Origin: Cyanosarcina radialis HA8281-LM2
GTDB lineage: Bacteria; Cyanobacteriota; Cyanobacteriia; Cyanobacteriales; CCAP-1448
Reading direction: 5' to 3'
Assembly (NCBI GenBank): GCA_019359615.1
Contig: JAHHHA010000016.1
Location: 1 to 64,000, forward strand
Length of the DNA stretch: 64,000 nucleotides
A program made the translations under genes and the position numbers. The notes under the pieces are model-generated. The model was not told the DNA's origin and did no database searches. It worked only from the letters and a program-made list of their open reading frames with translations. Shown in pieces: positions 8,359 through 18,278 of the stretch (its first letter is position 1; each line of letters starts with the position of its first letter).

Positions 8359-8871
8359 TCAACTGTTCTCTTTGATGCGTCGTTGGCTGAACCAAGTTTG
8401 CAATTGCTGCCGACAAGCAGATTCTAAGATCCCTCCCAAAACTGATAGGCGATGGTTAGAGCAAGCACTATCTGGGATGTTGGCGACAGTGCGAATTGCA
8501 CCCGTTTTCGGGTCGTCGGCTCCGTAAACTAGCCACCCGATGCGAGCCAAAACGATCGCTCCAGCGCACATCGGACAAGGTTCTAGCGTGACATAAAGAG
8601 TGCATCGATCGAGATGCCAGGATTGCAAAACTCGTCCGGCGGCTCTGAGGGCAACGATTTCAGCGTGAGCCGTCGGATCTCGATCGCGTTCGCGACGGTT
8701 TTCCCCTTCAGCAATTAAGTTGCCATTAGCATCGACAATTACTGCCCCTACAGGCACTTCTCCGGCATCACCTGCTGACCGAGCTAGAGCTATTGCTTTT
8801 CTCATCCATTGCTGATGGAGGGCATAAGCATTTTGGTTAAGTTTTTCAAACCATTGAGGATCGGAGTGCAT
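8359..8871 (-). CDS. tadA: tRNA-specific adenosine deaminase
   Basis: This 170-residue zinc deaminase converts A34 to inosine in the wobble position of tRNA-Arg(ACG), an essential step in bacteria. Visible motifs are HAE at 69-71 (TAHAEIVALRAA; zinc ligand and catalytic Glu) and PCPMC at 98-102 (zinc cysteines). The ARxGWLVYGA stretch that follows is also typical. The C-terminal 20 residues run into an AATTGCGAATTG-type intergenic repeat. Confidence 0.93.
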   Translation of the reverse strand: MHSDPQWFEKLNQNAYALHQQWMRKAIALARSAGDAGEVPVGAVIVDANGNLIAEGENRRERDRDPTAHAEIVALRAAGRVLQSWHLDRCTLYVTLEPCPMCAGAIVLARIGWLVYGADDPKTGAIRTVANIPDSACSNHRLSVLGGILESACRQQLQTWFSQRRIKENS

Positions 8872-14591: not shown

Positions 14592-15341
14592 ATGCTTCAA
14601 GCTGAATTTTCTTTCTATGCCGAACTCAACGATTTTCTGCCACCTCAGAGAAGGCAAGTAAGTTTTACCTATCACCTCAAAGAACGGGCATCGATTAAAG
14701 ATACGATCGAAGCTATAGGCGTACCTCATACTGAGGTCGATCTAATTGCGGTCAATGGCGAATCAGTCGATTTTTCTTATTTAGTACGAGATGGCGATCG
14801 CATTGCTGTATATCCAGTTTCGGCTTCTAGGGATATCGAGCTTGACTCTCTAGTTCGCCCCAGTCTGCTACAGCAGGTGCAATTCGTCCTAGATGTTCAT
14901 TTGGGTAAGCTGGCAATGTCTCTACGCTTGCTGGGGTTTGACGCGTTGTATCGCAACGACTACGACGATGAGGAATTGGCTGAAATTTCCAGTCAAGAGG
15001 AGCGAATTTTACTTACCCAAGATCGAGGATTGTTGAAGCGCAGTATCGTTACTCATGGCTATTACGTGCGCTCTAGCGATCCGCAACAGCAGGTAGTTGA
15101 GGTGTTGCGGCGTTTCGATCTGTTTGGAGCAATCGCTCCTTTGCGTCGTTGCGTGCGCTGTAACGGTTTGCTCGAATCGGTGACAAAAGCAGAAATTGGC
15201 GATCGCTTGCCACCTTTAACGCAGAAATATTACGACGAGTTTGCCCGCTGCTTGAATTGCGATCGCATTTACTGGAAGGGCGCTCACTATGAAGGGATTC
15301 AAAAGTCGATCGATCGTTGGCAGAGTTTAGCAACTAAATAA
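14592..15341 (+). CDS. Mut7-C RNase-domain protein with ubiquitin-like N-terminus
   Basis: This 249-residue protein has two domains. Residues about 1-85 form a MoaD/ThiS-like beta-grasp (VDLIAVNGESVDFSYLVRDG). Residues about 90-245 form a Mut7-C PIN-like nuclease: LDVHLGKLAMSLRLLGFDA, then DYDDEELAEI, then LTQDRGLL carrying the acidic residues. A zinc ribbon follows (RRCVRCNG ... ARCLNCDRIYW). This architecture is well known in bacteria but the RNA target is not. The fusion to a ubiquitin-like domain is standard for the family. Confidence 0.85.
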   Translation: MLQAEFSFYAELNDFLPPQRRQVSFTYHLKERASIKDTIEAIGVPHTEVDLIAVNGESVDFSYLVRDGDRIAVYPVSASRDIELDSLVRPSLLQQVQFVLDVHLGKLAMSLRLLGFDALYRNDYDDEELAEISSQEERILLTQDRGLLKRSIVTHGYYVRSSDPQQQVVEVLRRFDLFGAIAPLRRCVRCNGLLESVTKAEIGDRLPPLTQKYYDEFARCLNCDRIYWKGAHYEGIQKSIDRWQSLATK

Positions 15342-15804: not shown

Positions 15805-16680
15805 ATGAATATATGGCTGCACAATCCCATTGCAGAAATGTACGGACCTTACTTTCTGCTATTTTATGCCTGTGCGATCGCAATTACAATCTTTGTTTGC
15901 TGGAGTTTAAGCACTAAAGATTTGACCGCTAATTTACCCTTACCATTAGTTCCTAGCAACCCCGATCCTTACGAAATAGCTTATTTGCGGAATAGCGATA
16001 CCGGAGTCATGCAGCTAGTAACGTTCGATTTATTAGTACGTGATTACTTGCAGGTTGAGGACAACAGTATAGAGCGATCGCCTACTCATCCCGATATCAG
16101 TTTGCTAACACCAAGCGAACGAGAACTTTTTGATTGGTTTGCTCAACAGCGAACGAGATTTTTACCTGCTAGTTTTCAACCGCACTGTGAAGTTTATCGA
16201 CGACGACTGCAAGCCCAGCAATTCTTATCTTTAGATGAATGGCAAGTTCAAAATAGTTACGTTGGCTCGATCGGCATCCTAATTATTTTAGGATTGGGAC
16301 TCTATAAATTAACCGCAGCTTTAGCTAACGGACACCATAATGTGGGATTTCTCATTACAATGATGATTTTCTCACCATTTTTACTGTGGAATATTGTCTG
16401 TAGCTCGTCATTTCGGTTGAGCGATCGAGGACGAAATTATTTGAACCAACTTCAAGCAGCTTTCGCCCAGCTTAAAGATCGAGAAACAAATTCTTTTGAT
16501 GATTACAATTTAATCGTGGCACTCTTTGGAGTTAGCGTACTAACCGGAACTCCTTACGATTTTTATCAACAAATATTCGCTACTCCAACTACTAGTTCGA
16601 CATTTAGCAGTAGCAGCGGCGGTTGTGGTAGTAGTTGCGGCGGCGGGTGCGGCGGCGGGTGCGGCGGTTGTGGAGGATAA
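15805..16680 (+). CDS. TIGR04222-type membrane protein with Gly/Cys-rich tail
   Basis: This 291-residue protein has AGGAGA eight bases before the ATG. An N-terminal membrane helix (about 14-35) precedes a soluble region with LVTFDLLVRDYL and LTPSERELFDWF, then two membrane helices (about 150-172 and 180-200) and the ...LSDRGRNYLNQLQAAFAQL segment typical of TIGR04222 proteins. The last 20 residues are Gly and Ser with cysteines at 274, 278, 282, 286 and 289. Such low-complexity Cys tails are expected substrates for modification. The downstream DUF692 oxygenase makes a substrate role plausible; this is inference. Confidence 0.8.
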   Translation: MNIWLHNPIAEMYGPYFLLFYACAIAITIFVCWSLSTKDLTANLPLPLVPSNPDPYEIAYLRNSDTGVMQLVTFDLLVRDYLQVEDNSIERSPTHPDISLLTPSERELFDWFAQQRTRFLPASFQPHCEVYRRRLQAQQFLSLDEWQVQNSYVGSIGILIILGLGLYKLTAALANGHHNVGFLITMMIFSPFLLWNIVCSSSFRLSDRGRNYLNQLQAAFAQLKDRETNSFDDYNLIVALFGVSVLTGTPYDFYQQIFATPTTSSTFSSSSGGCGSSCGGGCGGGCGGCGG

Positions 16681-16848
16681 AAAATCAAACCAATTTGCAA
16701 TTGCGATCGATGGCAGCTTGAATTTGTGTTTATCTGTGTCCATCTGTGGTTTTGATTCAAAAATCTGATTTAACTAAGAGGTCGAGCGATGAGATTATTT
16801 GTATTTTAATTGCGAATTGCGAATTGTAAATTGACAATTGTTTTAGTT

Positions 16849-17682
16849 ATGTTCTCTCATTTACCTACATTAGGCGTTGGCATTGGTTTTCGCCACCCTT
16901 TTCGCAGCGAACTATTTCGACAGCAGCAACAGGTTGACTTTCTAGAAATAGTTGCCGAACACTATCTAGATGCTTCCTTTCACCAGGAACAAGAATTAGA
17001 ATTACTAGCAGCACACTTTCCGATTATTCCCCATGCGATCGGCCTTTCGCTTGGTAGTGCTGAAGGCTTAGACGATCTTTACTTGAGGAAACTCGCAGCA
17101 TTAATTAAACGGTTAAATCCGCCCTGGTGGAGCGAACATATTTGTTTTACCAAAGCTGGCGGCATCGATATCGGACATTTATCGCCTCTGCCTCATACTC
17201 GCGAAGCTGTAGACGTACTTTGTCGGAATATCGATCGAGTGCGACGTTATATTGACGTACCGCTAATTCTAGAAAACATCACTTATATGATGGCAATTCC
17301 TGGCGCTGAAATGACGGAAGCACAATTTATTGCTGAAGTCTTAGAGCGTTCTGATTGCGGGTTGTTATTAGATGTCACCAACTTACATATCAATGCCGTC
17401 AACTACAACTATGATGTGAGAGATTTTTTCAATGAATTGCCTTTAGAAAGAGTCGTGCAATTGCATTTTGTAGGCGGACATTGGCAAGATGGCGTACTAA
17501 TTGATAGTCATTCGCGATCGACTCCTAGTGAAGTGTGGCAATTGATAGCTGAAGTCGTTGCTAGTGTTGCCGTCAAAGGAATCGTGTTAGAAAGAGATGA
17601 AAACCTACCGCCTTTTAGCGAATTAGTTAATGAGTTAGAACGAGCGCGATCGATCGGGAGGCAAAATCAACGATGGAATTAG
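16849..17682 (+). CDS. DUF692 multinuclear non-heme iron oxygenase (MNIO)
   Basis: This 277-residue TIM-barrel protein belongs to the DUF692/MbnB-TglH family. Known members use two or three irons and O2 to modify cysteines, or to remove carbons next to them, in ribosomal peptides. Conserved metal-site blocks are all present: PHAIGLSLG (H62), WWSEHICF (E96, H97), ILENITYM (E142), LLLDVTNLHINA (D175, H180), LHFVGGHW (H206, H211), IDSHSRSTP (D219, H221) and VLERDENLP (E248). I start at 16849; a longer frame from 16810 would be translated out of an AATTGCGAATTG repeat. It overlaps the next gene by 10 bases, so the two are coupled. Confidence 0.88.
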   Translation: MFSHLPTLGVGIGFRHPFRSELFRQQQQVDFLEIVAEHYLDASFHQEQELELLAAHFPIIPHAIGLSLGSAEGLDDLYLRKLAALIKRLNPPWWSEHICFTKAGGIDIGHLSPLPHTREAVDVLCRNIDRVRRYIDVPLILENITYMMAIPGAEMTEAQFIAEVLERSDCGLLLDVTNLHINAVNYNYDVRDFFNELPLERVVQLHFVGGHWQDGVLIDSHSRSTPSEVWQLIAEVVASVAVKGIVLERDENLPPFSELVNELERARSIGRQNQRWN

Positions 17683-18047
17683 CAGTAATTCAAAAATCTT
17701 TAGCTCTATTTTACACCGACAGCAAATTGCGATCGCGTTTCTTTGCCAATCCCTTACAAGTGCAAGAAGAATTAGGTTTAAGCGAGCAAAAGGTACTAGA
17801 ATTATCTACATTATCGCCTAGCCAAGTTAACTTATTCGCTACTTCTTTAAAACACAAGCGACTAGGAGAAGTTCGAGAATTATTACCACTGACAGCATGG
17901 AAACTAGGTAAAAAATTTAATAGTTTGTTTTGGCAATATGCCGAAACTTATATGCCGGAGGGAATTAGAAAACATCATAATGATGCGATCGCATTTGCCA
18001 CATTTATTGTCAAAAATGCCGAGATAGCCGCTAGCGATCGCCTTTAG
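17673..18047 (+). CDS. MNIO partner protein, cut by in-frame TAG
   Basis: These 124 residues (MELAVIQKSLALFYTDSKLR...) form the helical N-terminal domain typical of genes paired with DUF692 enzymes (DUF2063/SCO6045-like), which present the substrate to the oxygenase. The start overlaps the MNIO stop (ATGGAATTAG). The frame hits TAG at 18045-18047 but continues open for 76 codons in the same frame with sensible protein sequence. The full partner would be about 201 residues. CAG-to-TAG is the simplest explanation. Either the partner is truncated here, or the codon is read through, or the sequence has an error. Confidence 0.75.
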   Translation: MELAVIQKSLALFYTDSKLRSRFFANPLQVQEELGLSEQKVLELSTLSPSQVNLFATSLKHKRLGEVRELLPLTAWKLGKKFNSLFWQYAETYMPEGIRKHHNDAIAFATFIVKNAEIAASDRL

Positions 18048-18278
18048 ATAACCGAGCTAGCACGTTACGAACAAGCTTGTTTGCAAGCATCAGCAACCAG
18101 GTTTTACTGCAAAATCTGTATATTTAGCTATCGAATAGATCGACTAATGCAAAATCTCGATCGAAGCGATGAGGGCGCTCGTCAAACCTGTATGGCATTC
18201 TGGATTAAATTATTACCCCAAGGACGACTACAACATAGAATTATAAATTGTAAAATTGCCATATTCATAAAGCGATGA
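18048..18278 (+). pseudogene. In-frame C-terminal remnant of the MNIO partner
   Basis: Continuing the 17673 frame past TAG gives ITELARYEQACLQASATRF..., FSYRIDRLMQN and RQTCMAFWIKLLPQGRLQHR before a TGA at 18276-18278. The ELARYEQA helix and the LLPQGRLQHR segment resemble the C-terminal domain of family partners, so this stretch was recently coding. The best internal start is ATG 18081, with no ribosome-binding site. Confidence 0.6.

Follow-up and report, generated by a model that had tools for sequence, protein, structure and literature searches.

The 64,000-nucleotide stretch analysed here (the window) covers positions 1 to 64,000 of contig JAHHHA010000016.1 of Cyanosarcina radialis HA8281-LM2 and belongs to a genome of 6.5 Mb assembled in 65 contigs. 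It carries three contiguous genes in the same direction, encoding a TIGR04222 membrane protein with a Gly/Cys-rich C-terminal tail, an enzyme of the MNIO family (DUF692), and a partner protein, and the same gene order occurs in several phyla. TIGR04222-MNIO-PME-type 2 clusters have been described, and the tail has been proposed as the MNIO substrate (Antoine et al. 2025, PMC12452194). We read the trio as a cyanobacterial member of these clusters in which the tail cysteines face the cytoplasm and are modified by the MNIO together with its partner, and we consider the chances of this reading evenly balanced.

The TIGR04222-MNIO-partner locus

The features of the locus are as follows.
15805-16680, + strand: TIGR04222 membrane protein, 291 amino acids (TIGR04222 profile score; AlphaFold2 model).
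16624-16677, + strand: Gly/Cys tail, C274-G291, five cysteines, candidate MNIO substrate (direct reading; the CGGCGG-type end is common to relatives).
16849-17682, + strand: MNIO (DUF692, PF05114), 277 amino acids from the conserved MFSHLP start (start set by relatives).
17673-18047, + strand: putative partner (PME-type 2-like), 124 amino acids up to a TAG, the N-terminal helical part (profile; fold of a relative).
18048-18278, + strand: in-frame stretch homologous to the C-terminal (RRE-like) domain of the partner, 43.6 bits over residues 2-66.

The gene order and coordinates given in the original prediction are exact to the base according to the open reading frame (ORF) list, direct reading, and profiles. 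This includes the five Gly-spaced tail cysteines at 274, 278, 282, 286, and 289 and the 10-base overlap between the partner ATG at 17673 and the end of the MNIO gene at 17682. Its interval, by ending at 18278, also includes a second stretch that corresponds to the partner C-terminal part beyond the TAG at 18045-18047. The gap between the TIGR04222 and MNIO genes is 168 nt.

The pairing of the two families has been measured in two samples. Among 386 genomes of the phylum, TIGR04222 is found in 22 and MNIO in 28, and both families occur together in 10, against ~1.6 expected. The two genes are adjacent in nine of these ten genomes and lie on different contigs in G360. G390 and G403, from a set of 40 relatives that partly overlaps the 386 genomes, also have an adjacent pair. 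The second sample, collected by MNIO similarity, comprises 55 named loci, 25 cyanobacterial and 30 from elsewhere. A TIGR04222 profile match is present in 38 of these (24 of the 25 cyanobacterial loci and 14 of the 30 others), the 14 belonging to Armatimonadota, Verrucomicrobiota, Planctomycetota, Acidobacteriota, Myxococcota, and one metagenome-assembled genome (MAG) of Actinomycetota. TIGR04222 is the family upstream of the MNIO in 24/25 cyanobacterial loci, and the partner profile matches in 51/55 loci. Two or three TIGR04222 copies are present in 12/38 loci, and the nearest TIGR04222 stop lies 5-6 nt from the MNIO match in 15/38 and at most 20 nt in 21, with a range of -5 to 1049 nt. Co-occurrence of TIGR04222 and DUF692 genes in other cyanobacteria, for which the original prediction had called as a check, is thus found and is mostly a matter of adjacent genes. 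Second TIGR04222 copies beside the MNIO at L072:3949-5003 and L068:4168-4956 are seemingly decayed or truncated ahead of the tail.

The 291-residue protein scores 91.4 bits against TIGR04222 over residues 20-246 (curated cut-off 43 bits), which makes it a member of the family, and it ends in GGCGSSCGGGCGGGCGGCGG. Its AlphaFold2 model has a mean predicted local distance difference test (pLDDT) score of 86.2, falling below 55 in the tail, and on this model the Gly/Ser/Cys tail is predicted to be disordered. Foldseek against the PDB gave no match under E 0.001 for the model, and VIA-align gave middling helical matches, the best with Z 8.8 over 86 residues, from which no known fold is assigned. 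The tails were surveyed in 53 genes, the window gene and 52 others. At least four tail cysteines are present in 51 of the 53, the two exceptions being one truncated and one tail-less copy, and the tails end most often in CGGCGG or CGGCGGG (10/53 each). In the Cys-bearing part of the 51 tails, NGY codons specify Gly 663 times, Ser 447 times, Cys 376 times, and Arg 3 times. Since Arg (CGY) is nearly absent from a codon class in which Cys abounds, the tail cysteines are under selection. The same 3 Arg versus 376 Cys codons rule out that the tail arose through drift of a simple GC-rich repeat. A tail gene that adjoins an MNIO gene and encodes a conserved Cys motif has the features expected of a precursor, and by sequence it is a candidate substrate.

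The MNIO scores 305 bits against PF05114 (gathering cut-off 25), which places it in the family, and it is the only PF05114 match in the 6.5-Mb genome. A longer frame would begin with TTG at 16810; the ATG at 16849 is preferred from the relatives. Nine residues (H62, H97, E142, D175, N178, H206, D219, H221, and E248) are invariant in 9/9 MNIO sequences and align with the same residues in 3BWW, TglH (8hci), and MbnB (7dz9); we take them to be the iron-site ligands. The nearest curated models are BufB, with 249.8 bits (cut-off 310), and HvfB, with 216.8 bits (cut-off 360), so that neither equivalog cut-off is reached.

Gly/Cys tails without a detected MNIO

Several observations, given here and in the following section, weigh against a modified cytoplasmic tail. 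They are the MNIO loci that lack TIGR04222, the cysteine-bearing tails of genes not linked to an MNIO, the periplasmic side published for the tail together with the length of a fourth hydrophobic stretch, the interruption of the window partner, and the chemistry, where copper and thiooxazole are assigned to the TIGR04222 tail by analogy only. In addition, no published modification of a TIGR04222 tail was found.

TIGR04222 was not found in 17/55 MNIO loci, with L103 and L105 ending at a contig end and L115 and L117 giving partial or weak matches, and the MNIO there must therefore have other substrates or be orphaned. Its absence from same-clade loci would suit a TIGR04222 protein that acts as a delivery or export component for another MNIO product and is not itself the substrate. 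The comparison of genes between loci covered ORFs of at least 90 amino acids, and a hidden smaller precursor (<90 amino acids) is possible. However, the near-constant place of TIGR04222 upstream of the cyanobacterial MNIO and the maintenance of the tail cysteines argue against a delivery role, which we regard as improbable. The sole cyanobacterial exception, L082 (Nostoc sp. CMAA1605), has MNIO and partner and no TIGR04222 in its 10.8-kb locus. Five loci with a same-clade MNIO from MAGs labelled Verrucomicrobia or Proteobacteria (L099, L101, L102, L107, and L114) have a family of ~470 amino acids upstream, ROK/hexokinase-like by eye, and no TIGR04222.

Many TIGR04222 genes without an MNIO have been reported (PMC12452194). 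The link between tail and MNIO was assessed on a clean set of genes found through TIGR04222 alone, with cysteines counted in the last 45 residues. At least four tail cysteines are present in 13/13 MNIO-linked genes versus 9/18 unlinked genes (Fisher p 0.0036, uncorrected for kinship). At a threshold of at least two cysteines, the counts are 13/13 and 15/18. Of the 18 unlinked genes, 16 are from genomes without a detected MNIO and two from genomes with an MNIO elsewhere (G360 and G397). G053 (9% contamination) contributes three of the 18, and several belong to a single genus. Some of their tails are eroded (GGCGC, GCGGCFPICGV) or lost. In a tree of 64 rows, ten unlinked proteins fall in one clade (100/99) among MNIO-linked rows, and the label changes between linked and unlinked number 3, versus 12.1 for shuffles. 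Of the ten, two end in a tail with two cysteines and one is tail-less. L068:4168 and L100:4105 (no tail), the unlinked L003, L004, L008, L023, and L062, and the linked genes of non-window genomes lacking a name were left out of this tree. The simplest reading of the tree is that the MNIO was lost while the tail was kept, although rooting, long branches, and sampling through the MNIO make this direction uncertain. A strict dependence of the tail cysteines on the MNIO is ruled out by the MNIO-less tails; a weak dependence is retained.

The presence of a different modifying enzyme next to the unlinked genes was considered and rejected, as no gene recurs across most of the 14 loci compared (11-17 kb, ORFs of at least 90 amino acids). 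Three genes recur in 3/14 loci (G360, G393, and G397), one for a CHAT/periplasmic-binding-protein, one with DUF1822, and one that has no Pfam match. A related binding-protein gene is also present in G402, and a histidine kinase family occurs in three loci, one of its members having been scanned. To our knowledge, none of these recurring genes belongs to a known Cys-modifying family. In L135, L137, and L142, the loci of G360, G393, and G397, the CHAT/periplasmic-binding-protein, DUF1822, and unnamed genes adjoin a TIGR04222 fusion, the domains of the first having been read in L135.

The fusions are 13 unlinked TIGR04222 proteins (frames of 383-552 amino acids) with an extra N-terminal domain of ~145 residues. 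This domain resembles PF07173 (GRDP-like) weakly, and one of the four fusions scanned matched, with E 0.058. A scan for the CGGCGG motif at codon level in 22 genomes found, in the genome of the window, the window gene and one other gene only. The codon pattern is not enriched (65 matches versus 59 in the reversed control, 30 of them in G340), and the matches were used for their places only. In the loci read (29/30 plus L144), every frame of at least 200 amino acids with the motif at most 16 residues from its end encodes a TIGR04222 or GRDP-like protein. The second tail gene of the genome (L144:2321-3214, minus strand, contig C54) encodes a GRDP-like domain and the tail SGCSNGDSGCCGCGGCGGCGGD, shows two hydrophobic segments by eye, and lacks TIGR04222. 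Identity between its domain and those of the ten fusions compared is 44-63%. Against PF07173 (cut-off 22.7), the domain scores 21.0 bits in hmmscan and 22.7 in a six-frame search that includes neighbouring stretches. The genome of the window thus has as separate genes the GRDP-like and TIGR04222 halves that are fused in other genomes of the phylum.

The GRDP-like domain was found in 31/386 genomes of the phylum. There are 21 close matches at E 2e-36 or better, of which 20 were read; the remaining one, a 183-residue frame in G064, is short. At least two cysteines occur in the last 45 residues in 18 of the 20 genes, and the two tail-less ones encode proteins that are short, with 173 and 186 residues. 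The 18 comprise ten TIGR04222 fusions and eight genes that lack TIGR04222 (seven of the eight in MNIO-less genomes); in all, 16 of the 18 tailed genes come from genomes in which no MNIO was detected.

Similar tails are carried by TIGR04222 fusions and by GRDP-like proteins where no MNIO is detected, and no gene recurs beside most fusions. Both observations would be expected if the Gly/Cys tail were a module of its own, a flexible cytosolic brush that binds thiols or metals unmodified, with MNIO and partner recruited in one lineage as an optional or conditional addition. The greater Cys content of the linked genes argues against this, as do the eroded and lost unlinked tails, which agree with a relaxed need after MNIO loss. 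We hold it possible, at something less than an even chance. We also put forward, tentatively, a view that joins these observations. The tail would be a portable, cytosol-facing membrane module of TIGR04222, GRDP-like, and fused proteins, perhaps related to plant GRDP tails, with a basal function that needs no MNIO. MNIO and partner would then be optional tailoring, with the partner supplying an NHLP-like docking domain in trans. A docking domain of this kind in trans would account for a substrate without need of a leader.

Partner protein and membrane side of the tail

In the AlphaFold2 model of the window TIGR04222 protein, long helices span residues 14-37, 144-174, and 181-199, with a folded domain between the first two. 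The hydrophobic stretch that follows contains an 11-residue helix only (231-241). We take the three long helices as predicted transmembrane segments, and three passes would place the tail and the folded loop-1 domain on the same side. Lys and Arg average 8.7 on the loop-1/tail side versus 1.4 on the other side, with the same bias in 27/27 sequences (27 of the 53 genes). The residues counted are ~57 and ~26, respectively, and the density of these charges differs ~threefold. In the fusions, a lipobox-like cysteine ends the hydrophobic segment after the N-terminal domain in 11/13 by regular expression and in 12 with L020 by eye, a count that leaves out L008 (gene split over two frames, with L026). 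These cysteines would sit outside. They occur ~170-240 residues into the protein (ITGC, LTAC, VSGC, etc., in L002-L007, L010, L019, L020, L058, L059, and L062), and an internal lipoprotein-type signal would be unusual. Several GRDP-like proteins have two hydrophobic segments by eye, and in L185 the sequence RRRRK precedes the tail.

The charge pattern, the helix count, the lipobox-like cysteines, and the segments of the GRDP-like proteins favour a cytoplasmic tail. On the other hand, the tail has been predicted to be periplasmic (PMC12452194). The longest run free of D, E, K, R, N, Q, H, and P has a median of 14 in the fourth hydrophobic stretch versus 15 in helix 2. The fourth stretch is therefore not clearly apart from helix 2, and a fourth membrane pass, which would give a periplasmic tail, is possible.

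The partner of the window is stopped after 124 residues by the in-frame TAG at 18045-18047, and its full-length relatives are mostly 180-210 amino acids. A partner profile built without the window sequence gives 164.0 bits before the TAG and 43.6 bits behind it in the same frame (E 3e-15 for the latter, from a search of the two pieces only). The C-terminal RRE-like domain is thus missing from the partner ORF and present in the frame behind the TAG. A Pfam scan of the window partner and of the L039 partner gave no family, DUF2063 included. The fold was assessed on the full-length L083 partner, a relative of the shortened window protein, which was modelled at pLDDT 93.6. Its closest match is TglI (8hi7; Z 11.8, 181 residues, root-mean-square deviation (rmsd) 3.7, Foldseek E 4.8e-5), with further matches to NGO1945 (3dee; Z 10.0, 122 residues, rmsd 3.1, Foldseek E 0.019) and MbnC (7dz9_C; Z 6.4, 140 residues, rmsd 4.6, Foldseek E 0.65). 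By its lack of a DUF2063 Pfam match and the NGO1945/TglI-like fold modelled for its relative, the window partner fits PME-type 2.

The N-terminal domain of the partner (residues 1-59) is leader-like, resembling the nitrile-hydratase-like leaders of ribosomally synthesized and post-translationally modified peptides (RiPPs), and it sits in the partner rather than in the substrate. Against the NHLP-clan model NF038399 (NHLP/Os1348 RiPP leader), 23/24 partners match at E <= 0.1, the best at 1.2e-9, with bit scores of 16.2 for the window partner and 15.6-30.7 for the others shown, all below the curated cut-off of 40 bits. In structure, the domain resembles the N-terminal domain of the borosin precursor SonA (7lts_B), with Z 5.0 over 46 residues, rmsd 2.0, and 30% identity. 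By sequence, the matches to solved chains are weak (nitrile hydratase 1v29, E 0.0022; SonA, E 0.32). The authors of the TglHI structure found no structural homologue of the TglI N-terminal domain (PMC10880893), and the likeness to NHLP-like leaders may therefore be new; no statement of it was found in the literature passages searched.

Under the reading of a modified cytoplasmic tail, the TIGR04222 protein would insert with three transmembrane helices and its N-terminus outside, leaving the tail in the cytoplasm, where the MNIO would work. The N-terminal domain of the partner would dock on the MNIO, and its C-terminal domain would deliver the tail to the active site. The MNIO could oxidise the tail cysteines to 5-thiooxazoles, as an analogy with the related bufferin/HvfB enzymes suggests (PMC13097082), and the product might be a membrane-anchored brush that binds a soft metal, probably copper, or a thiol. 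The same tail could work unmodified where the MNIO is absent.

The interruption of the partner makes the window locus doubtful as a working example. The TglI N-terminal domain docks on TglH, and the C-terminal domain is needed for substrate contact, since its destruction abolished the interaction with the substrate (PMC10880893). Modification in this genome may accordingly be impaired without the partner C-terminal domain, or the short partner may suffice. The operon may thus be decaying in this strain, the TAG removing the substrate-binding domain and leaving the MNIO idle and the tail unmodified. The C-terminal domain still recognisable behind the TAG, the TglI precedent, and a TIGR04222-MNIO gap of 168 nt versus the 5-6 nt common elsewhere are consistent with decay. 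However, the MNIO and the tail are intact, several other loci also have long gaps (up to 1049 nt), the TAG may be a sequencing error, and a PME-type 2 protein that is naturally short, with 115 residues, has been described (PMC12452194). Since short proteins of this type exist, loss of function of the window partner is not certain, and we consider decay a serious possibility that falls somewhat short of an even chance.

Other genes lie near these loci. The Nostocales neighbours (ion channel, deaminase, response regulator, and histidine kinase) were taken as synteny and set aside, and only the deaminase among them gives a match within the window (positions 8413-8841, 34% identity). In 20/25 cyanobacterial MNIO loci, a gene resembling those of voltage-gated potassium channels, with a cluster of C-terminal cysteines (L063:1905-2768 and equivalents), lies upstream. 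One such gene was scanned and matched potassium channel models below their cut-offs, and its place upstream is probably Nostocales synteny. Just upstream of the trio, window positions 14592-15341 encode a Mut7-C RNase whose N-terminus carries the ubiquitin-like Ub-Mut7C domain. Between 15500 and 15740, upstream of the TIGR04222 gene, the pattern ttaagggggg(c/g)(t/a)(a/g)gggggg occurs in several G-rich stretches that resemble interspersed repeats.

Comparison with known systems

The original prediction inferred that the tail of an integral membrane protein could be an MNIO substrate. The pairing on which this was based is real, and a preprint gives a precedent for a protein C-terminal tail, with an MNIO that modifies the C-terminus of a 34-kDa protein (PMC12636315). 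The idea itself is plausible but not new (PMC12452194), the tail cysteines are not tied to the MNIO, and the partner in the window is interrupted. As far as searched, what goes beyond print is the likely cytoplasmic tail, the tail carriers free of an MNIO, including one in the same genome, and the interrupted partner. A modified tail would be an MNIO product fixed to an integral membrane protein and facing the cytosol, unlike secreted metal-buffering peptides, and the topology bears on the published periplasmic prediction (PMC12452194). The MNIO-less relatives are a natural control through which the role of the bare Gly/Cys tail and the contribution of the enzyme could be told apart. Through the GRDP-like link, plant proteins whose function is unknown could also become approachable in bacteria.

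In plants, AtGRDP2 carries a DUF1399 domain at its N-terminus and a Gly-rich region interspersed with Cys at its C-terminus (PMC4299439), an arrangement shared with the cyanobacterial GRDP-like proteins. Unlike these, the plant proteins are eukaryotic, TIGR04222 is not mentioned in the accessible parts of that source, and the cyanobacterial N-terminal domain lies just below the Pfam cut-off (21.0 versus 22.7). A text search of the literature found nothing that links PF07173/DUF1399 with TIGR04222 or with cyanobacteria.

Captophorins, bufferins, and HvfA (PMC13097082, PMC12452194) are similar in that they belong with the nearest MNIO models and have repeated multiple Cys, with Cys followed by Gly. 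They differ in being peptides that carry Sec signals and whose partners are DUF2063 proteins (PME-type 1), and the window MNIO does not reach the curated cut-offs of their enzymes. TglHI provides the closest fold to the partner in TglI (Z 11.8), whereas TglH excises a carbon from the Cys that ends a small peptide scaffold (PMC10880893). MelA1/MelH/MelHc (PMC12636315) is alike in that the C-terminus of a folded 34-kDa protein is modified by an MNIO and a second protein is needed. It differs in its CPACGMG motif, in the ChrH subfamily of its enzyme, and in a precursor with a secretion signal that is described as secreted and, in the available passages, without Gly/Cys repeats.

The TIGR04222-MNIO-PME-type 2 clusters (PMC12452194) are the closest of the known systems in composition, having the same families, the substrate gene ahead of the MNIO, and a Gly/Ser/Cys C-terminal tail. 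As in the window, their partner has no DUF2063 Pfam match, yet has its fold. They differ in being mostly from Actinomycetota with a tail predicted to be periplasmic, whereas the window system is cyanobacterial, with charges that point to the cytoplasm and a shortened partner.

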